Below are positions 8,829 to 62,300 of a stretch of DNA of 64,000 bases, piece after piece. Below the pieces are notes generated by a model that was not told where the DNA came from, searched no databases, and saw only the letters and a program-made list of their open reading frames with translations. Source of the stretch: Thunnus maccoyii (taxonomy: Eukaryota > Chordata > Actinopteri > Scombriformes > Scombridae); NCBI RefSeq assembly GCF_910596095.1, contig NC_056534.1, positions 9,116,490 to 9,180,489 of the forward strand, in the 5' to 3' direction. The position numbers were made by a program, and so were the translations under genes. Each line of letters starts with the position of its first letter. Position 1 is the first letter of the stretch.

Positions 8829-11695
8829 TTAGTGATTATTTTCCACTAACAGCTGTTGTTTTGGTCTGCCCAGCGGCTTTGTTGGCGGTTTTGGCTTCTT
8901 GTCATGAATCTTCAGATGCTTTCGATAACCTTGAGAGTAATAGTAGCACTTCCCACATTTCTCACAAGTATACGGTTTCTCTCCAGTGTGAACTCGCAGA
9001 TGAGCCTTGAGAGCACATGCCTTGGAGTAACTTTTACCACAAATTGAACACAGGTGAGGCCGCTCTCCGCTGTGAGTTTTGAGGTGCCCGGTGAGGTGAG
9101 AGGCCTGTGAGAAGGCCCTCCCGCATTGCTCGCAGTGGTAGTTCTTCTCTCCAGTGTGCGTCAACTCGTGTTTTTTAAGTATGTCTGCTGTGAGGCAACT
9201 CTTTCCGCACTCCGAGCAGAGAAACGGTGAGTCTCCTGAGTGACTGCGCTTGTGTAGTTTAAAATAATACTCGTTTTTGAATGTCTTGTCACAGTGCGGA
9301 CAAGCGTAAGGCTTCTTGTGACTCTCGCGGTGTTCTTCCAGCTGTTGTTTCTGAGGGAAGTCCATCCCACACTCTCCACACATGTGAACTGTTACAGGAG
9401 ATTCTTTAGGGGCACTCTTCTCTTGAACTAACGTCCAATTTGGTAACACTCCTGTAAGAAAAACAAAGACGTTTCATAATTAAATGTAGAACAGGTCTAC
9501 ATTATTAGACATATTATAATCACTGAAAAAAAAAACAACACATGACCAGGGGTCTCATTTATAAAACCAGCGATGGAGGATCCATACTAAAAGCATACAT
9601 GCACACAAAAGCTGAAAACAGTGTGCGCCAAAAAATCTGATTTATAAAACCGTGCATACACACAAATGCATGTATATTTCCCTTCATAAATCACAGTCCA
9701 CTTGGAAATGTGCGCACATGGATCATCCTCATATCCCGCCCACATTCAACCATAAATGGTTGATGCAGAAGTATTCATGAACACTGATGTACATGTGTTT
9801 CTTTCGCCGGGCCAATCAGTCTCTCTGTCTTCAGACGTCTGACCAATCAGTGTCAAGAGTCAACATATGCGCCCTCTCATTCGTCACTTTCACTCAGGCA
9901 GCTGCAGATGAAGGACCGTGACTGCCATGAACTGACTTTTATTGTTTTATTTCCCCGTTTTTGGACTTCTTGAAGTTATGAGTGTAGCCTAAAACAACCA
10001 TATACAACTTCTACAAACATTCCTGTTGATTGTAAAGTCAGACATCTCTCTGTTTCTTACCAGACACCCAGCAGCGGGCCGGCTCCCAGTTAATCAGTTT
10101 TAAGTAGTTTTTACACTCAATATCTACAATACAATAAACACAATATTCATTGATATTTACTCCAGAATCCAGCGCACAGGTGTTTCTCTAATTTACACAG
10201 TCCTCATATGAGTGCAGGAGGTGAAGAAGTGCTGTTGAGGTGACTGGAGAAGACAGAGTGTGTGTGGCAGCCAACGCTGTGTCTCCAGTGACAATCATGT
10301 GTTCACTGCAGTGATTTTACACATATAAACTATATGAAAACTAAAATCATACCTGGTGATATACACACAGTATGAGAAGATATTAAAAATCTATTAGCGC
10401 TTTGGAATCAGTATATTCACGCTTTATATCAAGGAAAGGCAAACCAGACTTTCCTGCAGCTGCTGCAACTGAGCCTCTCCTCCTCCTCGCTGATGAAGAG
10501 TTGAGTGGACTTTGATGTAAGATTTGCGTTGGCTTATATCTTCTCAAATTGAAAGGTGCTTGTGGAATAGTTACGGCTCACTACGAACGCAAATACAGAT
10601 AACACTGCTGGTTTGAATGTTTATGATAACGTGGATCTATAATTAAGGTTTGATATTAAGTGAAATTAAATGTTTGAGAGGATCATTATACAATCTGGCT
10701 TCAATTCACCACCTCACCATCTGCATCGCCAATTTTCTATCTTCTAAATGTTCGTACGCTTGGGTCACAGCTTACGTACAGATGTGCACATTCTGCCATC
10801 AAGTTTTTTATAGATCACAACTTTATCCTGGGAAGTGGCAAACGCCTCTTTCTGGCCCCGTTTTGTGCGTACACAATGGTTATAAATGAGACCCCAGATC
10901 TTTCTACAAGCATCTATATGAAAAACAAACAACATAGACAACAGGAGCTTCCGGTTGCTTCTGACCTTTGTGAACTTTCATGTGTGTTTTGAGGTTTCCA
11001 CTCTGGGTGAATCCTCTTCCGCATATGAAGCACTTGAAAGGTCTTTTCCCTGAGTGGATCACGAGATGTCGTTGCAGAGCGGCGTTGTGAGAGAACGCTC
11101 TCCCGCAGGTCGGACAGTCGTAGCTCTTCTTGGGTCTACGTGGCCCCTGGGGTTGTTTCGGCTCCTCTGACGGTTCTTCCTGAAGCTGCTCGTTGGAGCT
11201 GCTGAGTTCATCGACGGGTTCTGTTCTTCTTGAATTTTCTTTAAAACAAAACCAAAAAAACAAACAAAAGTTAGTGTGACATGGCAGTTTTCTGAGCCCT
11301 TTTAACCATTGTTGCACTACTTTCTTGTTGTTTATGGTATTTCTTATGTACTTATCTACTTTCAGTTGTTTCTTACTTTAATAATTATTTAAAAAAAATC
11401 TTCTCAATGCACTTGTACCTGATCAGATACTTGAGAATTTGTACCACTGCTCTTTCTGAGTCACTGTCCTCTAATGCTTGATTGTCCTGCCTCACTTAGA
11501 AGTGGCTTTTGATAATTATAATATTGATAATTATAATGTTTAATGACCTATTTTTTAATAAAAGACCAGAAAAAAGGTTGACCTTAACCACTGTATTTTG
11601 AATTTAATCACTTTATTTGCACACCTAAAAACTATCATACTGACGAGCTGACCTGTCCTTTATCAATCAACCGTTTCCTCACCGTCTGCACTCAT
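8829..11695 (-). CDS. ZNF-B: C2H2 zinc-finger protein, eight fingers
   Basis: This is a probable sequence-specific nuclear DNA-binding protein of about 302 aa. Exons on minus: 11695-11683 (MSAD plus one base, GTGAGG donor; a short, inferred first exon whose phase fits), 11238-10966 (two fingers) and 9451-8829 (six fingers). All junctions are phase 1. The two-finger exon is preceded by an acidic stretch ([16 protein letters not shown]) and PRRPKKSY, and it splices after MKVHKG. The terminal exon opens [17 protein letters not shown]. It ends [19 protein letters not shown] then LLVENNH and a TAA. Finger 5 (CGKSCLTAD) has Cys in place of the usual core Phe; the ZNF-C copy has Phe. The intron between finger exons holds a 1345-bp transposon. 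The gene is the tandem paralogue of ZNF-C but lacks C's DQEHLEESC exon. Confidence 0.8.
9550..10894 (+). mobile_element. 1345-bp non-autonomous DNA transposon in the ZNF-B intron (PIF/Harbinger-like?)
   Basis: Termini GGGTCTCATTTATAA and TTATAAATGAGACCC are perfect 15-bp inverted repeats, flanked by CAG at 9547-9549 and 10895-10897. The paralogous intron of ZNF-C has a single CAG at 16441-16443 in otherwise matching sequence (CATGAC-CAG-ATCT). That is an exact empty site and proves a 3-bp target duplication. A 3-bp duplication suits PIF/Harbinger, but the family name is inference. No transposase ORF was seen. Confidence 0.85.
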
Positions 11696-11950: not shown

Positions 11951-12231
11951 CTAACAGCATAGCTAATGCTCAGTTACTCCGCTGAGTTAACGCTAACAGC
12001 GCTACAGCCGCTAGCATGAAGATATAAAGCAGAAACAAGCTAAAGTTACTGTTAGTAATCGTCTACAGCACCGTGCACAGAGTCCTCCATGCTGATAGTT
12101 GGAAGCGCATCCAAGCAAATCTGGGTCTTTAGAGCAGCGCCAGTCCTGTTGTAATAAAAATAATTATGAAAAATCAAAAAAAAACAAAAACACAATAAGT
12201 TGACTGTAAGCAGAGCCACAGGGGATTGAAC

Positions 12232-14667
12232 CTACCGCACACAACTACGAGGCATATAATCTTCATCGTTACTGTCATCGTAGTCTGTTTCTACTTCCCT
12301 TGTTTCATCTTCCTCTAACGATGACACAGACTCTGCCTCCTTATCAGAATACCATGTGTCATCTTCCCAGTCAATACTAGCGAAGAAAAAGGATAAATTC
12401 AGAGAGTATTATTCACACACGAAATAATCATTTCCCCCAAGAAAAAGAAAAGTAAAAACATCTCCGCAGTCCACACAGCAACTTTAGGTGGAGTTTTGAA
12501 TGTTGTTAAATTCATCTGCACTGATGTCATCAACGTTTAGATCCAGTGTGGACATACTAAACAGAGAGAAAAAAAAAACAACAACAAAGGACGGGATGTT
12601 ACATCACCACATGTCGCTGAAGTCATTCAGGGACCAAGAATTTATTTTCAAATTTGTACTTTGGAAATAATGTGAACAGAATTCGTCACTATAGTTACCG
12701 TACCTTGCATCCATTTCCTGAATGGCCGACTCCTGAGCGCCGCTGTTGTCCAACTCCTCCACTCCAGCTACTGAGAAGTCATCATCTCTGCAAAAATGAC
12801 AGTAATTACAATAATAATTACACAAGAACATCTGGATCTGTTTACAGGACATTAAATTGTTCTTCCTTCTTTTAAAAAAAAGGACACAACGCAGGACTGT
12901 TGCTGCATAGAAATGGAAACATGGTAGTGGCTCAGCTGATGAAAATGTGAATATTTTTTCTATTGTATCTCTGCCTATACTTCAACCATCCTTCATGTGT
13001 GTAAAACAAATGAGCTACGTATGAGAGAAAGACACATATTTATGAAGCTGTGTTCTTATCTGCATCACTCACCGGTCAGAGAGAGACTCTGCTAATATGA
13101 TAGAGACAGAAGGCGGTGGGGGTCCAGTCAGTCCGTGCTCCGAAGGTGTGGACGATGAATCTTTCTCATAACTACAAAAACACAAAGGCTACAATCACCA
13201 CATTTGTAAATCGTCAAGTTCAAAGCCAACATAGACTTATATAAGATAAATACCATCAAACAACACTCGCTCACAACTGCAAAGCAGACACCGGTGTTAC
13301 ACCATATTTGGTGACCCATCAGATTTTGCGACCTGCAGTGTTGACAGAAGTACTCAGATTCTTTACTTAAGTATTAATACTACATTACAAGTAAAAACCC
13401 TGCATTTAAAATCCTACTTAAGTAAAAGTATAGAAGTATCACCAGCTAAGTTTACATAAAGTACTAATTTTGCAGAAAACTGAGCCCAATTTTCTGCAAA
13501 ATGAGTATTTTTACTTTAATACTACTAGGATTTTCACTTGTAATGGAATATTTTTACATTGTGGTATTAATACTTTTACTTAGGTTTTCAGAAAGCTGCT
13601 GCTCGAGTCCTCCATAAGACCAAGAAAATGGATCACATCACTCCAGTTCTCAGATCTTTACACTGGCTTCCTGTTGATCAAAGAATAGATTTTAAAATAC
13701 TACTGTTGGTTTATAAAGCACTGAATGATTTAGGGCCACTATACATTTCTGATCTGCTGCTACGTAATGAACCATCCAGACCTGTCAGCTCGTCTGGGAC
13801 TGGTCTGCTTTCTGTCCCAGGAGCCAAAACTCAACATAGAGAAGCAGCGTTCAGTTTTTATGCTTCATATATCTGGAACAAACTCCCTGAAAACTGCAGG
13901 TCTGCTGCAACTCTAAGCTCTTTAAATCACAGCTGAAGACTTTTCTGTTTGCTGCTGCCTTTTATTAAATCAAATTTGAGGCTTTTGATAAATATCTTAC
14001 ACTGCACTGTGACTTTTACTCTCCTGCTTTATCTCTTATTCTTTTAGCTTATTTTTATTTCCAATTGAACGCTTTTTTCATAACTGTATTTAAATGTGTT
14101 TTTATATTGACTTGTGTTGCTTTTACCTTCTGTCTTGATGCCTTTTAAGTTATGTAAAGCACTCTGAGTTACCTTGTTGTTGAAATGTCATTCACATATA
14201 AACTTGCCTTGCCCTAAATAAATGATCTTCCAACACTTCAGGTCACCAAATACGGTGTGACACCGGTGAACAGTGTAAACAAACACTGCTGCACAGTCTA
14301 GTTACTACATAACACCTGCAGGGTTGCTAACGTTAGCTAATGAATACAGTAGCTGCATAAGTTAGCTCCATGTTGGCTACATACTTCAGGAAAATAACCA
14401 ACAAAAACAAAACAAACCAGATAATTACCTGTCCAACAGAAACACAGCGACCATGGCATCACTCTTCAGGCCCTTCATCTCTCTCAGTTGTCGCCATCGT
14501 TGAAAAGCGACACCGATGTTGACTCTGGTTTGAGCTCTGGCTTGATCCAACCTCTTTTTGGTCATCGCCTTTTCGACTACTGTCTTTCTCTTCTTGCTTT
14601 GTTTAGCGCTGCACGTTGTTGGACGTAGAGGCGGATTTTGACATTTTGGCTGCACTTTCTCTGCCAT
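12232..14667 (-). CDS. unrecognised small acidic/basic protein with N-terminal RVNIGVAFQRW domain
   Basis: Function unknown. Exons on minus: 14667-14429, 13171-13073, 12787-12704 and 12376-12232. Junctions are all phase 2 and the total is 188 aa ending in TAG. Residues 1-48 are basic (KKRK at 25-28, KKR at 37-39). Residues 49-80 form a helical-looking domain, RVNIGVAFQRWRQLREMKG then SDAMVAVFLLDR, followed by YEKD. I have seen this motif in teleost multigene families without a named function. The C-terminus is very acidic (SIDWEDDTWYSDKEAESVSS through DSNDEDYMPR). An alternative last exon, 12556-12484, uses the same phase and gives 164 aa ending EFNNIQNST. The last exon also carries a good GTAGGT donor overlapping the stop, so more 3' exons are possible. 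No zinc fingers. Splicing into ZNF-B is out of phase, so I treat it as separate. An L2-like LINE fragment sits in intron 1. Confidence 0.6.
13335..13588. repeat. hAT-type non-autonomous element end
   Basis: The segment CAGTGTTGACAGAAGTACTC and onward, with repeated ACTTAAGTA / TACTTTTACTT words, matches the ends of the complete hAT element at 56260-57451. Only one end is recognisable before the LINE fragment begins. Confidence 0.5.
13589..14215 (+). mobile_element. 5'-truncated LINE (L2/CR1-like), C-terminal ORF2 fragment and 3' tail
   Basis: The translation contains KAAARVLHKTKKMDHITPVL, then RSLHWLPVDQRIDFKILLLV and GPLYISDLLL, then WNKLPENCRSA. This is the characteristic end of the reverse-transcriptase protein of fish L2-type LINEs. 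About 115 codons remain before a stop, followed by a 3' UTR with AAAGCACTCTGAGTTACC. The copy is dead and lies antisense in the intron of the 12232-14667 gene. Confidence 0.75.
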
Positions 14668-14829
14668 GCTTGTGCTACTAGCTCGCTAGCTTTAGCAATA
14701 TGTCCGCTTAGCCGAGAGGAGTCCAGCTGTCCGGCTCATGATGGTCCAGCTGCGGCCTTGTTGCGGAACCTACAAACCACGCCCACTCGAACAAGACGCT
14801 ATGGTGGCCGAGGAGGACCATATAGACCA

Positions 14830-15640: not shown

Positions 15641-17100
15641 AAAGAATGATTTATTTACTTTTTTGCTTGTATTGTATGTCTGCTCAGATTACTGTAACTT
15701 TCCCAGATGACTTTAGTGATTATTTTCCACTAACAGCTGTTGTTTTGGTCTGCCCAGCGGCTTTGTTGGCGGTTTTGGCTTCTTGTCATGAATCTTCAGA
15801 TGAGCTTGATAACCTTGATAGTAATAGAAGCACTTCCCACATTTCTCACAAGTATACGGTTTCTCTCCAGTGTGAACTCGCAGATGAACCTTCAGAACAT
15901 ATGCCTTTGAGTAACTTTTACCACAGATTGAACACAAGTAAGGCCGCTCTCCGCTGTGGGTTTTGAGGTGTCCTTTGAGGTGGGAGGCCTGTGAAAACGC
16001 CCTCCCGCACTGCTCGCAGTGGAAGTTCTTCTCTCCAGTGTGTGTCAGCTTGTGTTTTTTAAGTGAGTTTGTAGTGAGGAAACTCTTTCCGCACTCTGAG
16101 CAGAAAAACAGATAATCTCCCGAGTGTCTGCGCTGATGTAGTTTAAAATAATACTCGTTTTTGAATGTTTTACCACAGTCGGGACAAGCGTAAGCCTTCT
16201 TGTGACTCTCGCGGTGTTCTTCCAGCTGTTGTTTCTGAGGGAAGTCCATCCCACACTCTCCACACATATGAACTGTTTCAGGAGATTCTTTAGGGGCACT
16301 CTTCTCTTGAACTAATGTCCAATTTGGTAACTCTCCTGTGAGAGAAACAAAGATATTCATAATTAAATGTAGAACAGGTCTGCATTATTGGACATATTTG
16401 ACATTACACAAGAGCATCTCACTGAAAAAAAACACATGACCAGATCTCTCCACAAGCATCTGTATGAAAAACAAACAATAAAGACAACAGGAGCTTCCGG
16501 TTGCTTCTGACCTTTGTGAACTTTCATGTGTGTTTTGAGGTTTCCACTCTGGGTGAATCCTCTTCCGCATATGAAGCACTTGAAAGGTCTTTTCCCTGAG
16601 TGGATCACGAGATGTCGTTGCAGAGCGGTGTTGTGAGAGAACCCTCTTCCACAGGTCGGACAGTCGTAGCTCTTCTTGGGTCTACGTGGCCCCTGGTGTT
16701 GTTTCGGCTCCTCTGACGGCTCTTCCTGAAGTTGCTCGTTGGAGCTGCTGAGGTCATCAACAGGTTCTGATCTTCTTGGACTTTCTTTCAAACAAAACCA
16801 AAAAAAACACACAAGTTAGTGTGAACATAGCAGTTTTCTAAGCCCCTTTAACCATTGTTGCACTACTTTCTTGTTGTTTATGGTATTTCTTATGTACATA
16901 TCTACTTCTAGTTGTTTCGTGCTTTAACAATTATTTTAAAAAAACAAACAAACAAAAAAAACTTCTGTCTAACACTCTTGCACTTGCAACTGGTCAGCTA
17001 CTTAGGAATTTGTACCAGGGCTCACTCTGAGTCACTGTCCTCTAACGAGTGATTGTCTTGCCTCACGTGTAAGTTGCTTTGGATAAAAGCATCTGCAAAA
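15270..17100. repeat. segmental duplication, distal copy (ZNF-C unit)
   Basis: Close paralogue of 8420-11530 covering the two finger exons, the short intron, the 3' flank and part of the 5' intron. It ends in a SINE-like tail (GCTTTGGATAAAAGCATCTG, then AAATGACTAAATGTAAATG). Confidence 0.85.
15650..15655 (-). terminator. AATAAA polyadenylation signal of ZNF-C
   Basis: Minus-strand AATAAA 58 bases beyond the ZNF-C stop codon. Confidence 0.65.
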
Positions 17101-22909: not shown

Positions 22910-25900
22910 TCAGTCTGCAAACCTACCGACATCAGGAGGCTCCCAGGTCGGGTCTTCTCCATCTGAGTCAGGCAGAGCGCTCTGTGAGACCTTCTCGAGC
23001 CCGCCCGTCTTCCTGGGACTCCCCTGCTGTCTGGGTCTGCCGAGCTGCCTGGTGGGCCCTATGGGTTTGGCGTTGTGAGTCTTCTTATGGTTGTTAAAGC
23101 CTTGCCTGTAGTAGAAACTCTTCCCACACTTGTCACACTGGTACGGTTTTTCTCCCGTATGAACTCTGAGGTGAACTTTGAGCTCTTCGGTTCTCGCGTA
23201 ACGTTTACCGCAGATGGAGCAGAGGTGAGGCCTCTCTCCAGAATGCGTCACGTAGTGGGCTCTCAGAGTAGACTCCTGCTTAAATCTTTTACCACATATA
23301 ACGCACGGGAAAGGTTTCTCTCCCGTGTGATCTCGCATGTGGTTCTCTAGTCCCTTTGAGGTCTGGAAACCTTTATCACACTGCGAGCACTGGTAGGACT
23401 TCAGACCCTTGTGTCCAGCCTCATGTTCTTTTAGTTTCTGGATATACGTGAATCTCTTGCCACACTGTGTGCAGGAGAATTGTTTCTTTGATTCATGGAC
23501 TTGCTTCATGTGTTCATCTAACAGTTGTTTTTCAGAAAATTGTGTCCAACACAGGTGACAAAAACAGGTTTCCACTGATGACTGAGCCTCTTCGGGTTGA
23601 GCAGAAGTGTTTTCTAAAGCTGCCGTGTTGATAGATTTTCCTGGTGGAAGAAAAACAAGATTAAGTTCATACATCCTTAAAGCTACATGAATACATATTT
23701 TTAAATTAACAATGGATTGAATGACTGTGTGTAATGTGAAAGGTTTCCTTCGTAGCGATGAACTGACAGAAAAAGATCACCTGAGTCTACAGTTCCCCTC
23801 AGCTCTACAGAGTGTTTAAGTGTCTTTCAGGTCATCGTTTGGTTTTACAGCTTGTAATTTTACTGCTTTGGTTCATTGTCAGTTGCCAGATGTTTTCAGT
23901 GAGAAAAAAAAATCTTTCAAACACACAGTACGCCACCTGACCGGTATACAAAGTCTGCGACAAGCTGGTGAACATAATTGAGCATTCAGCAGCTAAAGGA
24001 CCGGATATTTTACCCAGGAGATAATGGACACCATACCAGAGCTAGAAGGATAGTGAATATTGGAGTTACATGTGTCATATGGCCAAAACGTGATTCCAAA
24101 AGAATGCTAATGTTGATCTGGATCTGCCTGATGTGTAAATTAGCCCAAGTTCGCTAACATGTTCTCCACATCAACTTCTTATTATATATATATATATATA
24201 TACTTTTATGACATAGTGTATATCAATGGGGTGTTTTCTACTTGTTATTCTACTAAAAAAAACTGTCTCAACATAAAAAACCACAACAAATGTTGTGAAC
24301 CTCAGTGCTCTCACCTTTATGAACCTTCTGGTGTGTTTTGAGGTTTCCAATCTGTGTGAAACCTCTTCCACACAAAGTGCACTTGTACGGTTTCTTCCCT
24401 GAGTGAATAATAAGGTGCCTTTTCAGAGAGGCACTAGTAGGGAACTGCTTTCCACACGTTGAACAAATGTAGGTCTTTGGAGGCCTGTGCTCTTCTTGTG
24501 GTTCCACAGCCGCTGCCGGTGTTGGATGGTAGATCCGCTGATGAACTATCAAACTTCGATTGGCTCTAAAAGTCTGTCCACAGTCGCTGCACTTGTGAAG
24601 CGAGTGTTTGCCATGTTTCTCTCTCAGATGGCGGTCTCTGGCGTAAACGCTCTGGAAGTCTTTGCCGCAATCTGTGCAGCTGAAGAGCTTCTCAGCCTCA
24701 GTTTTCTTCTGACGTTTCCCGTGCGTTGCTGTTTTCAGAGAACGGTTGGGTTCAGGTTCGGTTGGTGTAGCTGTGTGCGTGTCACCAGGTAATGATGTAA
24801 CACCAGGAGCCGTACCTACATGTATGAAACAGAAAGGCTGGTAGGTGTAAAGATAACAACACCAAAACTGTCACTCTTTCTTCTCTGTTTGGAACATCCT
24901 CCTGAATTTTGTTGACTGACAATATCTCATTTTTGTCTTATGTTTTCATTTATCTCTTGGTTTTCTAAATCAATCTACTGTACAATTTTATTTTTGCTTC
25001 AGACCTACTTGTAATATTATCATTTAAGTGTCTTTTCACCCAAATGACTAAAAAAACATATTTTCTCACATATGTGATAGTGAATGATATCTAGCCATGT
25101 ACATAGTTTTGGTTTATGTGTCGAGGTTTTGAGATCTCTTTCTCTATTTCTGCCTCTGACAAACACAATCGAGGTGTGTTGAACTTAATTTGTGGTGCTC
25201 AAAGCTCCATTCTTTCCAGAATCAGTGCTCCTGTTACTATGAATAACCCACAGACTGTGGACTGTCTATATTTTTCACTGGAACTAATTTCTACTGAGGA
25301 AATACGTCCTTTGGATACTGTTCAGAGTAAGATCAGTGGATTATCCCAAAGACACATTACTGTTGGGCTTTTCAAATGTGATATTCGATGGTTTAAATTA
25401 CTACTTTACTGTCTTTGTATTGTGATGGCAGGTCAAATTTCAAAGATCTCAAAAGCTGACCCTTTAAACTGGAAGCACTTCATTATTTTAACAGCTCTGC
25501 TGACAAAATGTTTACAGTAACATTTCTATGTCCAATAACTTATTTGACTCTCAGGTCTGATGGACACCACACTGTTGTTCTACTACTGAACAGACCTACC
25601 CTCAGGATTCCTGTCCATGTTAACATCTGAGGTAATCAGGCTTCCAGCAGGTTCTCCTCCATCCAAAACTTCAGGTGACCATCCGTGTATACCGAGGTGT
25701 TCCTTCAGTCTGTCCTTGTGGGAGAATCTCTTGTTACACACTGGACAGGTAGAAGGTTTGTCTTTGGTGTGGATTAAAAGGTGTCTCTTCAGTCTGTTCA
25801 GGAAATTAAACCCTTTCCCACATTGGGAACATTTGTGAGGTCTGGTTCCTGTGTGCATCCTCTGATGTCGTTGTAGGGCTCTGCTGTTCGGGAATTTCTT

Positions 25901-31403: not shown

Positions 31404-34131
31404 CTAGATGTCCAGCCTGGCCTGTTGCTTCGGTCTACCGAGCTGTCTGGTCGGCCCGATGCGCCTTCCGGCGTGTGTGCGCTGATGCTGTCGCAGACCC
31501 TGGCGATAAATGAAACTCTTCCCGCATTCTCCGCACTCGTAGGGTCTCTCCCCGGTGTGCAGCCTGTGGTGCACCTTCAGTTCCTCGGCTCTGGAGTAGC
31601 CTTTCCCACAGACGCAACAAATGAAAGGTCTGTCTTTAATGTGGGTCTGGTAATGTGCTGTTAGGTACGAGTTTATCCGAAACTTCTTCCCGCAGATGGA
31701 GCAGGCGAACGGCCTCTCCTCGGAGTGCTGCATCTCGTGCAGCTTGAGAGAGGAAGCGGTGTGGAAGCCTCTTCCGCACTGGGAACAGAGGAAAGGTTTC
31801 TCCCCGGTGTGGATGCGCTGGTGGATCTGTATGTAGCTTTCGTTGATGAACTTTTTGCCGCAGTCGGGGCACGAGTAGGGCTTCTCCTTCACATGGGTTT
31901 TCATGTGTTCTTCCAGCTTCTCTTTCTCGGTGAACTGAATGCCACAGCGGCGGCAGAAGAGAAGCTGCGTTGCGCTGTGCTCGACCGTTTCCGATTCAGC
32001 GGCTGTGTGTGTGGTGATGTGGTGTGCTTGTAGAGCTGACTGACTCTCACAGTCCTTTCCGCACTCCAGGCAATGAAGGGACGACCTGATCCTCGACTCC
32101 CCCGGCAGAGACTTCAAGTATTCAGAGAGTTCTGACGCTATGGGATTCACCTCGTCGTCAAAATCCACAGCACCCTTTCGACCTTCAGAAAGACCAAAGA
32201 GAGACAAATCAGATTTTACTTTTTGTCCTCTTCAGGTATAACAATCTTTGCATTGTTAAGGAGTTCATTACTACTTCACTTTTATGTTTTGTCACGTAAG
32301 TAACGTCTGTAATTTTCCAGACTTTCACAACTATTCTATAGATTGACCACAAGAGGGGAGTGACAAGTTTATTTTTTCCAATGTTAAAATGTCCTGTCCA
32401 GCACATTTCTTGGTCGCAATTGTAAAACCAAAAGAAAAATATGTATGTAATGGGTCGTGTAAAGAAAATCAATATTAACCGATATATCATTATCTGATTT
32501 CAGCCTCAAAAATCCATCTAATCAGTCAGACTATGGTAGAAATGCAAATATCTGAGAGAGTTGTAAATAGTTATAAAGTTGGCATTGTTCTTTAGTTTTG
32601 TTATTATCAACAAATCCCATGAGAAGACAAAAATTAACAACACATTAGTCCATCTTTCAATACGTGAAGTATTGAGAGATGGACTAATTGCCTGTCTGTG
32701 GCTCTCAAAGCCAATTCCTTCCAACTGAAGACACAAATCTTAAAAAAAAAAAGCATCACAAATATATACTTTCCTTTTTTAAAAAGGCTAAATAATTTCC
32801 TAACAACAGCTGGGAACAGAAGTTTTAATCAAATGTAACTCAAACAGGAGAAAATTGTGCATTTATTGAGGACTATTTCCAGATTTGGTGCTCTCTTGTG
32901 AGTATTTACTGCAGCAGCAAAGTGATATTGGAATGACTTCAAATAAACTACAGCGCCCATGTTCATAGTAATAAAAGAACATGTGACCCAGTGCAATAAT
33001 GAAGCTTATTGATGTGTTTTTTTTATAGTTTTAAGACAACAGAGGAATAGGCTACATCAGGCTTTGGAAACAGGCAACAGGACACGTTTGTTTGTATCAA
33101 TTCATTCTTAATTTTGAACTTTTTATGAGATTTATAAAATTACTCGAGTATTACCCGACATATCCTTTAAGTACAGTATCTACAGCTCTCACCTAAGTGG
33201 ACTTTGTAGTGTGTTTTGAGGTTTCCCTTCTGGTTGAAACCGCGACCACAGATGGAGCAGCAGTAAGGTTTCTCTCCTGTGTGGATCAGCTCGTGTCTCT
33301 CTAGTTTGTAGGCATGAGGGAACTCTTTGCCACACACTGAGCAGTGGTAGTCTATCTTCTCTTTGGGCTTCTTCAGGAGCTCAGGAGGTATTTCTATCGG
33401 TACGTGAACCATCTTTCTGCCGGGACGCTTCTTCCCTGTGTGGGGAAAACGAAAGTGAAATTACAGTTATGATATGAGCTTGTAGACTAATCACATACCA
33501 ACCAGATACTGTGCTAACATCCTTAATAGTTTGATGAAACAACTGCAGTCAAATCTGTTTTTTACAAGAAAGATGTTAAAAACGTAATGGAACTGGTTTG
33601 TAATTTACTCACAAACTCAAACCTCCCTAACATTCCTCAGCATGCTATCGGCCAAAATAAAGTAAAAATGGGCAATAATTTGACACCAGCCTTCTGTAGA
33701 TATTAAATACTCAACATGAAATATGACTTAGCTCATGACTGTAAAACACATAGTTAGCTTTTGAAGGTTCTGTAAAGGAATATATATCATTTATTTCGAC
33801 TTTGAAACATCTATGACCTTTAGCTTTTTTAGATCAGACAAAAATGAGTTAATACAAAGCCACTAAAACCACAAAACAATAAAAAAGATATGTAAATGAC
33901 TTCCACACCGCCCAAGTTTCCTCCAATACCCTTTTTTCCTTGTTTTTCTTGTCTGCAGATCCTATCTATTAATCCTATTAATCTAAACTGCTGCTGCTGC
34001 AGTTTTTTGGTGACGGATGACACTAGTTGGACTAGAACTGCAGGTCTGAAACTGCTGCTGCTCTGCATTAGGATGATAATGATACTTTGCATCAATGATG
34101 CTGTGTGTCCTTGTTCTATAATGTGTCTTCC

Positions 34132-34213
<82 letters not shown>

Positions 34214-37200
34214 GATTAAATTAGAAAAAGTTCAGCATTGATACTTATACTGTGGCCTGACAGGCTGGAGTTTGTCCATTAACAGAAAAAACCTGGCAGG
34301 TTTACATTAAAATCATAGTTCCTGTCAACAGTGTGTCCACTGTTCTAAATCACTGCACCAAGTAGATTTAACAAACAAACACACAAACAAACATTAGCCA
34401 GAGCTGTGCTGGTACCTGTACTTTCGCCTCCTTCAGAAGATAGTTTGGCGTCTTTTCTTTTTCTGTAAAGTCTCTTTGCTGGTGAAAGAAAAAATAAGTT
34501 AATTGTTTTTTATCTACAACATAAAGCTAATGTTGAATTGTTAATGGCTAATGAGGGTTGGGTATCGAGAACCAGTTCTGAATTGGTTCTGATTAAACAT
34601 TTTTTAAAACTAGGAAAATGTACTTTTTGATTCTACTCACTCAGCGGTGTTTTATCTTACTGGTGTGTTCAAAGTTTGATGTGCCCTGTCTGCTGTAATC
34701 GCTCCTCATCTGATCAGCTTCTTGAAAACTAAAAAGCATAAAAAATATCCATATCATAGATTTATTTTTCTTTTCTTGCTCAAATAACGCACCAACCAGG
34801 ACCAGTAACTGTTATAAACTCAAACCAATAAGCGGAACTGGATTCAGAAACGATACCCAACCCTACCGATAAATGTCTTTTTTCCTTGTCTTACCCGCCG
34901 CACGACGGAGACTTTTTGAGTTTAATTCTTCTGTTTCCACCGTTGTAGGGAACGTTCTCTTTCTTCTGGTGCGCCTTGATACTATGAGATAAAAATAAAG
35001 ACTTAATATTAATGTACGAAACAGTAACATGAAAAAATGATCATTTTTAGATGCACTGACGAACATTCGGTCACCATGACGTTAAGAGGAAAACTCACTT
35101 CCTGGCTCTGCCTCCAAATCTTCACTTGGCAACTGTGGAGTTTCTGAAATCTTTCTTCTGCTCCTTCTTTTGACTTAGTGACGAAGAAAAAGAGAAGAAA
35201 ACGTTACCATGTGGAGAGAAAAACATAACAACACACAGAAACAATTATTGAATGTTAAGCGAGACAAATATCGACGCCTAAATCTGAATGCCTTTAAAAT
35301 AAAACATTTCACGCTACTCTTACTGTGATTCTTCCAAAGCTGTAACATTTCCCGCTTCAACCAACCGTCACTTCACTCACCACGTTTTGCAGGACCTTCT
35401 TTATCTTCATCTGGGACGTCCGGCGATACCACCGTTACCTCGGGAGCCTTTTTCTTCCTTCTGCGTCTCTTTCCTGTTAACATCAGGTACAAAAAAAAGA
35501 TCAACTCAGGACTGTGTCTGATATTATGTACAACCAGTATCTTTTTTTTTTTTTCCTTTTCGCTTGTGTTTACCACGATTTACTGGCGAAACAGCTGTCA
35601 TCTTCACTACTCTCTCTTTATCCTCCCCTTCATCCCTTTCTTCATCTTCCCCCACAGACACAACTTCCATGATGAGTGTTGGACTACTGCTGTCTCTCTG
35701 GTTTTGGCCTTGCAGCTGAGACTCTGACAGGACGACACCCTGTGATCATAACCATTAAAAACCATTAAAAACCATTAGAAGCACTCCTATTCCAGAGTGG
35801 CTGATGTTTTTATGTTTAATAACCAGTACGCATGAAGCTGCAGTTATGTGTGTTTATGCTCCAGTGAACCATAAAGACACTGAACCTTGTTATAATCTTT
35901 AAAGGGAAAGTGTAGCATAAAACAGAATTTACACTGTGCTATTCCAATCATTTTAGACTGTAAATTAACATCTTAAGACTTAAAATAGATGTTTATGTCT
36001 GACACCTACTGCAAATAAAAAATAGAAATTAGAAAAATAGAATTTGGGGGACAAATAACAGCTGCACCGTCATTTTGGTTTGGATGCACATGAAAACTTC
36101 TGTAGGCAAACTTGTTTTAAAATTAATTTTAATCTAGTCAAGAGTTTTCAAAATGGAAACCTACATTATAAAACTATTACTATGTGATTGTATTACGAGG
36201 GGGGGAGCAAAACTTCCTGGAAGCCATCGATAGCACAGGAGTAGGGTGTAGTTATCGGATTTGCCGCTAGATAGCGTGTACCAACAGCTCGGTGAAACTA
36301 AAATTTGCAGAATGCAATTGCAATTTTGTATTATGGGAGCAATCCCTAATCTACACATTTATCTCTAGAAAATGATGCCTAAAAACAAATTACCTTGCTT
36401 GGGTTGGGACCTTCTGTGCTTTCAGAGCCTCTGTCAGGACTGTCTCCTGTAAAAATCAAGATGTTCAATATGTTAAACATTATATCAAAAGCTTCAGTTC
36501 ATGTTTTCCTAAAAAAACTAAACTCAATTCATACTAACAGTTATTTCTTACTACCCAGTCAACTAATGGACATATAATGACGAAGCAAACAAGAGAAGTA
36601 TGGCTTTGTACAATTCATTTTTAAAATATATCATTGGTCTTGTTTGGAGTACCAAATAAACTCTTCAAAGCTCACATGGAGAAAGCAACGAGAACTCTCT
36701 CTGCAGTAAATAAACGTACAGTCATGAATCACTTACTGCTATCCCACTCCACCACTTCGCCATCAGAGTTGATTAAACCACCGATTTCTTCGTCTTGTTC
36801 CTCCTCTTCCTCCTCTTCCCCCGCTTGCAGCCTGACAGTCAGATGGAGCGTTTGGTCCTCTAAGTTTGCAGATGCCATCTTGAGTCCATGTGACATTAAG
36901 GGTTTACGTTCAGGTGAATCCTAAATACAGATAACAGGTTGATAAGGCGTTCATCCACTCTGATTTCTTTACGTCTTTAAGGTGTTTTGACCCACAAGTT
37001 GAGTCTGACGAGAAGAAATGACGCCAAATTTGAACATTTGTCTCGTTTGGTTGGTTTGCAAAGTGATTCATCTGCCTACATTGATAATCTTAATTTGTTT
37101 GATGCCTAAAATATCAGTTTTATTACTTAATGTCTTTGTGAAAACACTAAAATGCATTTACACTCAAGAAAATGTATATATTAGTCATTGAGTTAATGCT

Positions 37201-47360: not shown

Positions 47361-47879
47361 AGAAGCATTATAGCAGGTTATTAGCTACTGTTTGATCTTG
47401 GCTTCACTCTTGAAACTTTGTGAAGTTGTCGACCAACTAAAGTTGCATTGTTTTTGTGGAGTAAAGCAGTGCAGACTTATTAAATAGATCTGCCGTTAAA
47501 TGTAGTTTAACCAAGCAGCCTCAATGTAACTTAAAATAATGCAGACGTGATGTTCATTTTGATGGATTTACACAATTTAAGCAAGTTTTAAGAGTCTACT
47601 ATTATATTGTTTTGTTGTAAATAAATGAATGACAGCCAATGGATGTCAAGAAAAATGCTTAAAAAATCGTAAACACAATGGCAGGGTTTGCTAGATGGTC
47701 AGTTGGGATGTTAAGTGCATGTAAATATGCTACAACATTTAAAATAACTGGTATGGACAGTTTTCTCTGAGAAGCCTTTAGAGACCTTATGCATATTTTA
47801 CTTAATCTTTAAACTTATATGATTTTCTCCATTCAGTCCTCCCTTGTAAGCTTGTGTCTTGTCTTTTCCAGACTCGGAT

Positions 47880-50800
47880 ATGCTGCACCAGATGGAAGGG
47901 GATTCATCAGATGACAGTCTGGAGGTGTTAATGGATGAACCCTCTCACTCGAAGCCTTCCACCAATAACATCTCAGAACATGAATTCTCGTGCCACTGCT
48001 GCTACGACATCCTGGTGAACCCCACCACTTTGACCTGCGGCCATAACTTCTGCCGCCACTGTCTGGCTCTGTGGTGGGAGTCTTCTCACAAGAATGAGTG
48101 CCCCGAGTGCCGGGAGAAGTGGGAAGGCTTTCCTAAAATCAACATACTGCTGAGGTATGCTTTTCACAGCTAGACCATATCAGTGGTTGAATGTTTGGTT
48201 TCCAACCACAGTATTCACTTTGTTGCTCTCACGTAGAGAGCAAGAACTGCAGGGGGAAAAAAGTGTATGTGTGTGACAGGTGTGGTTCAAATGCAACTCC
48301 AGTTGAGACTCTGTGTTTACTGACAAAACTGTGTTATTGTATGAGCCCCTTCTCAACCAGAGTTGAGGCTCTTTTACACTGTGAGATGTGAGGCTGTCCC
48401 AGACGAAGGTTGACAGTTGTGACAGAAAAGTGGTGAGGTCTTTGATCGTCCCAAACAGTGTGGTCCTAAATCACACTTGCAGTCACGTTCACCAACGGCA
48501 GATTTAGAGCTTTGGCGACCACGGACAGGCCGTGTCACAATTCACACAGTGTCAGAAATTTAAGACTAAAATCTCCCAATGTGACTGTAGCCATGACCCA
48601 TGTCTACAAAACACCCAGAATCAGAATATGACATGAAGTGACACAGAATACACTGGATGCAAGCAAGTGTAGTGTTGCTTACACAAACATATTTATCTCA
48701 AACTCTTGCATTTGCATTTCATGTAGTTCCCTCTTTTCTTTGGCCGTGACCGACTTCACAATCGTCTCTTCTCCATTTCAGAGTTTTTGATGCAAGGAAG
48801 TGTCAAATAATGGCCGAAGTACATGTCTCTATCACTAAAAGTAACAGAGCCATGTACTCCTGTCCCACAGGTTGTTGTGATCAAGGGTAGAAATTACCAT
48901 ATGTATGTAATTATTTGACAGGGACAATGCTGGTTGATCAACAGGAAAAGAAAAGAACTGTGCCAGATATTAAAAAGGCAGAAGACGGCCTGCTTGCGTC
49001 TAACCGCCTACCAGAACCTAAGTCAGTTAAGCAGAAACTTGAGTTTCCTCATGTTTATTTCCTTTTTAACTGTAGGCAATAAGACACTAGAACTGAATGG
49101 AAGAAGAAAGCAGGAAGTGATGCTTTGTGGGGGTGGTTTACAAAGACTATGTGCACATAAGGCTAAAACCTAAATCAATATGAAATGTCTTTGTACTTGT
49201 CTTTATACTGACATCAAGTTATTAACAACATAAAGCACACAGTGTTTTGGTATGAAAAGGAAAGACTTGATGATGGTGTTTGATTAAACTGTTTCACCCT
49301 CAAACTGGCTGAAGATTCTCATATGCAAGCAGGTCAAATTAAATTTCAAATTCAAACCTTCTCTACGTCCACATTCTCTTTCATCTTCTTATCCCACACG
49401 TTAACTTAAAGCTCTTCTTTCCAGAGATGCAACCGACAAACTGTTTGGTGAGGTTGTGCAGCGGAGGAGAGCGGAGATCCAGGATAACCCCAAAATCTCC
49501 CGGAGTTTACTGGCATTCCAGAGGTAATATAATCTGTGATACGAGCTGTTTTGGTCATTGACTATATGAACCTTCCTGATGTCTGCTCTGTGCTCACTAG
49601 AGGGAAGTGCTTTTATTAAATATACACGTTTTTTTTTTAGGTATGGTGACAATTTGGGTAGATCCAAGACAAACCAGCACAAAGGAGCAGGCTTCTTCTT
49701 CTCTGGAGTCCTCACTGCGCTCTCGTGCGTGGCTGTAAGTACACGATGGCAGTAAAAACACCTGAACTTTTCCACGTTATCTTCTGTAGTAAAATGACCT
49801 CAAATGGTAGGTGGCCTCCAAACTGATCCCACGATAGCGAGCGAACTTCCCCATCTTACTATCAGGTGCGATTACCAGGCGTCAGTGTTACCGTGAGCAG
49901 GTTTTAAGGTTTACCAAGTCAGAAGATTCATCAGATTCTCCAACTGGTCTTTTAATAGTTGGATTGATTTATTGTATGTATCTTCAAGGCACACAGTAAC
50001 CTGCTGGATAACACGATAAAGTATTAACAGTCAAGTTGGGGACAACTTGACTGCATTTTTTTTTGCTTAGCTGAACAAAAACTGAACTAGGGCTGCAACT
50101 AACTATTATTTACATTATCAGTTAATCTGCTAACAGTCCAAAACCAAAAGATCCAAGACCCAAAGTATCTTCATAGAGCTGCTCCACGTAGAAATGACGA
50201 CTGCAAATGTTTTCTTGTAATGATGTTTTACAGAGAATGACATGATGGTCATTTTCTTTTCTTTTTGAAAAATAGAAATCATATATTTTCCTGTTGCAGT
50301 CCATTGTAAGTCGTTGCGGATAAAAGTGCTGTAAAAACTTGCAGCACATTAACTTTTGAGCGCATAATGAGTCGTTTGATCAGTTCGCATTATTGGATTG
50401 GTTAATAAGATTAATTAGAAGCAGTACACAGTCCAGGGTTTAAGCTTATTCTGATGCTTATTTTCAGTATTGAATTGGTGCATTCTTAGTTTGCAGTAGT
50501 GCAGATTAATGAATAATTTGGTTGTGCAGTACATGATGTCCCTTTTTAAAGATAATTTCAGGTTTTTTTTTTCTTGTTTCCACCCTTTCACCCCTAGAAG
50601 CTACCAAATATGCCTTTGGAGGAAATAAGAGTAAATCTGACACCTTATAAGAAGGTTAGATAATGTTGCACTCACACTGTTGTGTATTTCAGTGAAAGGG
50701 ATTTTAGCAACAGATATTTCAAACAGCAGTAATATCTAATGTTTCAAAGCTGTTACAGTAGGGAATGAAGAGGTCAGCTGTTATATCATGTACACAGACC

Positions 50801-59393: not shown

Positions 59394-62300
59394 GCCAGTG
59401 AGAATGAAACTTGAAACAAATACAGACAAATTAGCTCCTCACATCCTGCTTGTCATCCTGTTCACTGGTAGTTTTGCTCCAGCTGTGACAACCTTATCTT
59501 TGGGACTGTTGATCGAGACATTTGAGGACATAACCTTGATCTTTTAAGAAACAGTGATGGACATTTTTCACCATTTTCTCACCTTTTAACAACCAAATGA
59601 CCAATTGATTAATTGATAATGAAAATAACCATTAGTTGAAGCCGTAGATATGCTTTTTATTTTGGGATGTAGGGAGGTACAGATACAACTTTTTCTCTCC
59701 TGAAGTAGATTATGATCTGTAGACTTCACTGTGTGGAACAAGTTGGAAAAATATTTATGTAAGATAACGTGAAGTCAGGGATTGTTGTGGCTTTAAAAAC
59801 TGAGTCCTGCCTTTACTGATCGGAAACACTGACTTTTCTAATGATCTGTATTTAGTGTGAGTCGGTTACATCTTGGCTGATACCCACTCTGCTTAATAAG
59901 GTCAGTATATATCAGCACTGACATTGATCCAGCGTATTGGATTTGTGCATGTGTAATGTCTATGTCCATGATGTAGTACAGTTCTTGGAAAATCAATTGA
60001 GAAACTGTTAATGTATTAAAATAACCAGACCAGTTAAAGTACTTGACGAATCAAGGTGCACTTCCTTACATATAAACAGTGAAGCAACAACTAACAATAC
60101 TGTCATTATGGGATGGCTGTAGCTCAGTAGGTAAAGCAGGTCGTCCGCTAATCGGAAGAGCGGCGGTTCCATTCCTGGCTCCTCCAGTCTGCGTGACAAA
60201 GTGTCCTTTGGCAAGATACTGAACCCCAAATTGCTCCTCGTGTGCGCGAGTGAATGTGCACTAGATTAGATCCTGATGAGCAGGTTGGCACCTTGCACGG
60301 CAGCGTCTGCCATCAGCGTATGAATGTGTGTGTGTGGGTGAATGTTGGCATATATTGTAAAGTGCTTTGAGTGATCGGAAGACTAGAAAGGCGCATTTAC
60401 CATTAATGAATCTGCTGATTTATTTTCCTGATTAATTGCTTGGTCTGCCCATCACAGTTTTCTACAGCCCAAGGTGATGTTATCAAATGTCTTCTTCAAA
60501 CAGTCTAAAACCCAAAGATATTCAGTTTAATCCAATGTCAAGACAAAGAAAAACAGCAAATTCTCTTATTTAAGAAGCTGGAACCATGAAATGTTTGGTA
60601 TTTTCACTTGAAAACTGAATTTTCTGTCGATCAACTTGTCATTGTAGCTCTAATAAACAATACAGTATTGTGAAGTCACTGGTGGTAGACAAATAAATAT
60701 CGTCTCAGGAGGTATACTGTCATATCTCCTCATGTCATTATGATTCTTGTCTTTCCGTAGCCGTGCTAAGAATGTGGTGGCAGCAGCTCGGCCTCCGCTG
60801 CGGTTCTTCTCTGCCGAGGCCCCGGTAGTCGACCTCTACTTGGGTCAGCTGGATCAGGTAAGTTTCAAATATAGATGAGCACCTGACACAAACATTTTAT
60901 CACAAATCCGGTGTTAAAGGACGGTGTTGTTTTAACAGACAGGCTTGAAAAAATTGTGAACTTACGCTGGAATTATTATTAAGAAGAGAAGCACGTGCTA
61001 AATGCAGTCTCAGTTTTTACCAGACCCCTCAGATAGATTAACAATATCTTCTATTTATGATGAAGTGTCCAACCTGCAGACTCCCTTATTAGATGTTTTA
61101 AAATCTGCTTGTGAAATTGATCTGGGGTTGGATATAACAATGAGAAGAGGCAACAGCTTCAATTTGTACTTGGCTCTAGTTCAAGGTGCTCCATCGACTG
61201 AATTTCTCAGAAGTTAAACTTGCTAAAACGTGTCCTAAAGTAGATGTCATCTTTGACCAGTGCAGATTGCTCAAATGTTTTCGTACTTTCCTAAATTATC
61301 AGCTTTCTGGAGCTTTATGTGTCTGGTATTAACATTAAGTGTGTGTAGTGTTAAAGTCAAGACCACACGTCAAACACAAACTGAATCTAGGACGACGATT
61401 AAGAGTTCAACATGTCAGTCACATTCATTTCCTCTCCAGGTGGAGCGTCTCAGGAGCATGGCCGAGGTGTCTCTCATTTTCTTCTACGCACCCTGGTGTG
61501 CTCACTCCATGGCCGCCCGGCAGGAAGTGCAGCTGGTAGCGAAGAAGCTGGCCAAACAGGTACAGATCACCTGACGTCACAACAACAAGCACTCAGAACA
61601 ACAATAACCTCAGCTGTACAGTTAGAAGAAGTACTTTGTCGTCATAGAAACATTCTTGTTGACTTAAAGAGACAAATTAAACATCTTACATCTGAATATG
61701 GCTTATAGGACTTACTTACTTAACTTCTCAATTTATGTGGAGTTAAGAATTATAAATCATAGACCCGCTTTATATATATATACTGGATGTCTCTGACTGC
61801 TTGGATCTAGTTTTTCAGGCACTGAGGACGAGGCCTGATTTTAGACTCAAAAATGAAAACACACCATAACCGGTTTGAGATCTGGAAAAAGTTTTGTTTG
61901 TTCAACACTGTCCCTCTGTCTCTTTCACAAACACAGGTGCAGTTTGTGGCAGTTAACTGCTGGTGGAGTCAGGGGAAATGCAGGAAGCATAACCGCTTCT
62001 ACCAGTACCCGATCGTCCATCTGTTCTACAGGAGGTGAGACAGAGAAGACTGTCTTTGACTGTGTTTGATAATGATGTTTGATGCTCATCCTTTAATTAT
62101 GACGTGTGTGTAACAGAAGCACTTCACTGAAAAATACACCAAAACTGCTTTTATCTAACGAACCCTTCTGGCTACTGAAAATGTTTGTGCTTTGTGGCTT
62201 CAAATTATTGTAAGACAATTCATTCACTTTCTTTTAAATGAACTGAAATGCATCATTAGCTTCTGTATTACATTTATTACACTGGCGAAACAAAAACAAG

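Follow-up and report, generated by a model that had tools for sequence, protein, structure and literature searches.

A fish C2H2 zinc-finger gene with a series of small basic exons, likely related by old duplication

Why does a zinc-finger gene carry, directly ahead of its fingers, a series of very small exons that each open with a cluster of lysine and arginine? The gene, ZNF-F, lies in the window, a stretch of 64,000 nucleotides (C2:9116490-9180489) from a 782-Mb fish genome in 54 contigs. Its exons were read from the minus strand, and their lengths match exactly those of an earlier sequence-only reading (Table 1). That reading had described exons 7 to 11 (E7-E11) as phase-symmetric, with lengths divisible by three and a K/R cluster right after each splice junction, and both descriptions were borne out. 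Each of the five exons is flanked by AG and GT, has a length that is a multiple of three, is entered and left in phase 1, and begins with a basic patch. The interval 34416..35473 covers only the four mini-exons E7-E10, with E11 sitting 3' of it. Most of the 416-nt intron between E9 and E10 is taken up by an inverted-repeat element, which lies outside the exons and is probably a small DNA transposon. A long (TG)n run was found at about 34135-34211, in the intron between E10 and E11.

Table 1. Exons of ZNF-F and related features, in positions of the window
Feature	Position	Strand	Length and phase	Remarks
E4	36737..36920	-	184 bp, 0->1	Acidic N-terminal exon; in-frame ATGs (MASANLEDQ...); junctions read from sequence
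E5	36394..36446	-	53 bp, 1->0	Junctions read from sequence
E6	35574..35739	-	166 bp, 0->1	Acidic; donor weak (score 0.4)
E7 mini-exon	35381..35473	-	93 bp, 1-1	KRRRRKKK; acceptor score 2.8
E8 mini-exon	35099..35173	-	75 bp, 1-1	KRRSRRK; acceptor score 2.5
E9 mini-exon	34895..34981	-	87 bp, 1-1	SRRTRRKR
E10 mini-exon	34416..34478	-	63 bp, 1-1	KRLYRKRK; acceptor strong (8.2), donor 0.4
E11	33193..33435	-	243 bp, 1-1	KKRPGRK, then two C2H2 fingers
E12, last exon	31404..32182	-	enters in phase 1	GRKG at entry; more C2H2 fingers and tail (PT..LGRP.QQ)
Element in intron 9-10	34554..34864	.	~310 bp	Perfect 14-nt terminal inverted repeats (AGGGTTGGGTATCG)
ZNF-B, last exon	8829-9451	-		PT..LGRP.QQ tail
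ZNF-C, last exon	15713-16335	-		PT..LGRP.QQ tail
ZNF-D, last exon	22910-23640	-		PT..LGRP.QQ tail

The basic mini-exon pattern in ZNF-F is real and goes beyond chance. Within the 566-residue frame from E4 to E12, every nine-residue stretch with at least five K/R sits at one of the five E7-E11 junctions. In E7-E10, K/R account for 26/36 of the first nine residues vs 7/66 of the remainder (Fisher P 3e-10), a value that, like the other patch statistics, comes from a handful of short sequences and from thresholds partly set after the exons had been seen. Candidate exons of phase 1-1 and 24-260 nt were listed using simple home-made splice matrices of generic values. Strict splice thresholds retained E9 and E11 alone among E7-E11. 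Lowered thresholds yielded 42 candidates on the minus strand of the window, of which only E7-E11 carried at least five K/R among their nine opening codons; on the plus strand, none of the 36 candidates had at least five, and one had four. Under identical thresholds, 28 other 10-kb loci of this genome, read on both strands and selected for fingers rather than at random, gave 2/342 such candidates. The same scan also found two basic starts in other phases (L014 and L024). Twenty-five of these loci surround finger hits; of the remaining three, two (L006 and L007) flank the window and one (L017) falls between two hits. L001-L003 had been fetched as possible paralogues on the basis of two-finger similarity and were used only as background. 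Against this background of 2/342, five basic-start exons stand consecutively in ZNF-F.

A simpler count, of acceptor-like sites followed by nine stop-free codons with at least five K/R, gave 8/3509 in the background loci, 6/348 on the minus strand of the window and 2/410 on its plus strand. The six minus-strand sites were those of E7-E11 and one that is out of frame within E4. A chance reading frame was rejected on both the candidate-exon and the acceptor-site counts, window vs background loci. Genome-wide, a DNA pattern consisting of an acceptor and the heptad found 602 matches vs 575 in a reversed control, i.e., no enrichment, so the motif by itself proves nothing.

ZNF-F encodes a C2H2 protein, with Pfam PF00096 matching nine stretches (E 1e-40). 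All Pfam matches above the cut-off on E4-E12 are C2H2 finger models, and NCBIfam, a library built for prokaryotes, gave no named domain for the basic patches; the earlier statement that no named domain has this form holds within these two libraries. No KRAB match at E<=1 was found by Pfam in E2-E12, which includes the candidate exons E2 and E3. A match of candidate exon E3 to PF11327 (E 0.0015, 19.6 bits vs a cut-off of 25) was taken as chance or composition. An AT-hook array was also rejected, given that the E7-E11 patches have no GRP core and Pfam finds no AT-hook match at E<=1; the sole GRP of the E4-E12 frame lies in the E12 tail.

Are the five patches related to each other? In a gapless alignment anchored at the junction, the heptads of E7-E11 share the register K-R-R-x-R-R-K, which E10 (L-Y) and E11 (P-G) match loosely. 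Gapless sum-of-pairs scores compared with internal shuffles gave P = 0.0016 for the first seven residues and P = 0.0027 for eight, and codon order compared with codon shuffles gave P = 0.0003 over 21 nt. The corresponding results for nine residues (P = 5e-5) and 27 nt (0/20000 shuffles) partly reflect the basic run ending at residue 7-8. Column 3 of the heptad is Arg in four of the five exons, encoded by CGC, AGG, CGC and CGT, which points to conservation of the residue, beyond a mere purine run. The shared register in residues and codons, together with the symmetric phases, makes a repeated origin likely, suggesting that the E7-E11 patches derive from old tandem exon duplication. Taken alone, the phases of the mini-exons are less telling because phase 1 is seemingly the rule across the paralogue group: the two-finger exon of ZNF-B (273 bp) is 1-1, and the last exons of ZNF-B, C and D are entered in phase 1.

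Tandem exon duplication had been proposed in the sequence-only reading, which named pairwise alignment of the mini-exons and their introns as a check. Old duplication offers the simplest account of the patches, though it falls short of proof. Whole-exon alignments were weak among the 21 pairs of E5-E11, with uncorrected P values of 0.01 for the best pair, E8-E9, and 0.013 for E7-E9, and E5-E10, a pair of no expected kinship, reached P 0.03. The introns share no common sequence, with none of the 10 pairs below P 0.085. The weak exon pairs and the absence of intron likeness suggest that any duplication is old. For a second shared motif in the exon tails, P ranged with the chosen width from 0.0025 to 0.048 when E11 was included and from 0.04 to 0.15 for E7-E10 alone; because the segment picked in E9 shifts with width, this motif was given little weight.

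The resemblance of the patches could instead have been driven by splicing. In that case, short exons with mediocre splice sites would depend on purine-rich enhancers near the acceptor, whose AAG/AGA runs would by coincidence be read as K/R, the exons would have arisen separately, perhaps through exonization, and converged, and any role in the protein would be minor. Consistent with this explanation, purines make up 69-86% of the first 29 nt in E7-E11 vs 54-65% of the remainder of these exons, Arg codons within the patches are AGR:CGN 15:3 vs 18:15 elsewhere (P 0.065), and splice sites are modest at several exons (donors of E6 and E10, 0.4; acceptors of E7 and E8, 2.8 and 2.5). However, the codon order is shared beyond what composition accounts for (P 0.0003), the column 3 Arg interrupts the purine run by way of CGC, AGG and CGT, and a purine-rich start is missing from E5, E6 and E12 of ZNF-F. 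We therefore consider splicing-driven convergence possible but doubtful.

ZNF-F forms a paralogue group with ZNF-B, ZNF-C and ZNF-D of the window, all having a two-finger exon and a last exon ending in PT..LGRP.QQ. This motif follows the last finger and is built on a GRP core resembling that of an AT-hook; nine residues of an eleven-residue stretch are invariant. The whole last exons of ZNF-B, C and D are 45-49% identical to that of ZNF-F. A coding pattern for LGRP[KR]QQ found six matches in the genome, four of which are ZNF-B, C, D and F, and three in the reversed control. ZNF-B (8829-11238) and ZNF-C (15713-16784), both on the minus strand, are apparently close duplicates with identical tails. 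Among the 147 of 1323 candidates that were scored in a genome search with E12, the nearest were ZNF-D (51%), ZNF-C (48%) and ZNF-B (47%), and the next were other finger stretches with 37-50% identity. By E-value, E11 is nearest to ZNF-D (60%), ZNF-B (50%), a finger ORF at C15:1346130 (63%, in a shorter alignment) and ZNF-C (49%). Searches with E11 in prokaryote and virus contig collections gave 90 and 10 pattern stretches, respectively, none of which was confirmed, as expected.

The mini-exons themselves have no such relatives in the searches made. The joined E7-E11 peptide had four matches at E<=10 in the 782-Mb genome, all to its own exons (11 candidates scored), and E4 matched only itself at E<=1 (7 candidates scored). 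The window scans for candidate exons and acceptor sites found no basic mini-exons near ZNF-B, C or D, so even among the paralogues no retention of the trait was observed. The two-finger exons start with ENSRRTEP in ZNF-B and ESPRRSEP in ZNF-C, sequences that are mildly basic at best and whose first residue is read on the assumption that a G precedes the junction. L001-L003 were rejected as paralogues on account of their 2+3+1 finger plan and the lack of a basic 1-1 exon; they presumably resemble another finger family, Ikaros-like.

Three further genes were noted in the window. On the minus strand at about 12050-14670, there is a multi-exon gene seemingly starting with MAEKVQPKCQ...; its first exon contains RVNIGVAFQRWRQLREMKGLKSDAMVAVFLLDR and had no Pfam match. 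On the plus strand, one neighbour contains a RING finger (47850-48173, Pfam E 6.7e-9) and another a thioredoxin-like stretch (61257-61574, Pfam E 4e-4, below the cut-off). We guess that these two are BFAR and TXNDC11, respectively.

What might the mini-exons do? All 16 of the possible skip combinations of E7-E10 keep one open frame, in agreement with the earlier claim that no choice of skipped exons shifts the frame. The further proposal of that reading, a dose-adjustable set of NLS or DNA/RNA-contact patches, would depend on actual skipping, and the NLS or contact role is a conjecture. Measured from VSPVNR up to the first finger, the spacer grows from 35 residues (net charge +6) when the mini-exons are left out to 141 residues (+22) when all four are present. 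Our overall reading, to which we give a probability of roughly 0.55, is that ZNF-F is a single-copy C2H2 gene with phase-1 exons that were duplicated long ago and that encode an additive basic spacer, tunable if the exons are skipped. The four small phase-1 exons would have been gained or kept in ZNF-F through old tandem exon duplication. Each unit appears to follow one plan, with the basic heptad K-R-R-x-R-R-K at the junction and an S/T/P/E-rich stretch after it, and the units would jointly form a strongly basic, probably disordered spacer of up to 141 residues before the first finger. Such a spacer most likely acts additively, through non-specific electrostatic contacts with nucleic acid (DNA or RNA) beside the sequence-reading fingers, and as a source of redundant import signals. 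The 1-1 phase of every unit would let splicing retain any combination of them in frame, and if cells make use of this, the spacer charge would be tuned between +6 and +22. E10 would be the first candidate for skipping and the likeliest cassette exon, since its donor (0.4) is the weakest among the mini-exon donors.

The basic patches might alternatively constitute an import switch similar to that of MBNL1, in which skipping drops nuclear localization signals and sends the protein to the cytoplasm. The ELM expression for a monopartite signal matches 4/5 patches, and skipping of the MBNL1 exon 5 that bears such a signal is described as moving the protein to the cytoplasm (PMC10721184). However, the stricter expression K-[KR]-x-[KR] fits E7 only among the five patches, and the E11 patch and the fingers are present in every isoform considered. 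Finger domains can drive import, as the abstracts of two studies indicate (PMC5790263, PMC3960175), so skipping would rarely abolish it. We regard an import switch as improbable, and as less likely than additive electrostatic contact combined with redundant import signals. It is very unlikely that the mini-exons are unused, i.e., decayed or never-transcribed exon-like stretches inside one long E6-E11 intron, for although direct joining of E6 to E11 would also be in frame, four open and phase-matched candidates share a rare feature within ~1 kb, vs 2/342 elsewhere.

A more elaborate mechanism can be imagined, in which E7-E10 serve as an electrostatic dial: splicing would set the number of heptads, and phosphorylation of the central residue would silence single heptads, thereby grading the affinity for DNA or RNA. 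The residues at the heptad centre are R, S, T, Y and P in E7 to E11, respectively. We consider this mechanism a long shot. Under the additive spacer reading, if the number of exons varies, ZNF-F would provide a natural isoform series differing only in the count of like-charged units before the same fingers. Such a series would offer a direct test of how flanking basic charge affects target search and affinity. Should the exons be constitutive, the gene would still exemplify a short non-finger module that has been multiplied through exons in a ZNF gene, beside three related genes of the cluster in which the scans detected none.

ZNF-F is best read as a C2H2 gene in which a basic spacer exon is repeated, which would be a variation on a known gene type. 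A search of open-access literature, covering titles and the starts of abstracts, found no description of repeated basic mini-exons in a ZNF gene. To our knowledge, HMGA proteins have no C2H2 fingers, and the fingers of MBNL proteins belong to a class other than C2H2. HMGA2 and HMGA1 contain several short basic AT-hooks that contact DNA, each in a separate exon (PMC7353061), and the AT-hook is defined on TPKRPRGRPKK (PMC11354804). HMGA2 thus resembles ZNF-F in its exon plan, with short basic motifs in separate exons, but the AT-hooks have a GRP core that is lacking in the ZNF-F patches. In MBNL1 and MBNL2, exon 5 bears a nuclear localization signal and its skipping changes the place of the protein in the cell (PMC10721184); the ZNF-F units are in frame and would allow such skipping, but there is one such exon in those genes, whereas ZNF-F has four consecutive related units. 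KLF6 has a 5' basic region that adjoins its C2H2 fingers and is removed by splicing in a known variant; however, the start of the abstract does not describe this region as a repeated exon unit (PMC2936564).

Two comparisons come from fish. The FiNZ-ZNF genes resemble ZNF-F as fish C2H2 genes whose N-terminal part is rich in glutamate; they are described as having one FiNZ exon, encoding the 28-residue FiNZ sequence, followed by a single finger-array exon, in a family presented as unique to cyprinids (PMC10547256). In contrast, ZNF-F has nine exons from E4 to E12 with its fingers in two of them, a comparison of exon plan only. Teleost Piccolo resembles ZNF-F in that a unit has been multiplied within one gene, selectively in teleosts according to its abstract (PMC3484663), but the unit amplified in Piccolo is a finger domain, whereas in ZNF-F it is the basic patch.
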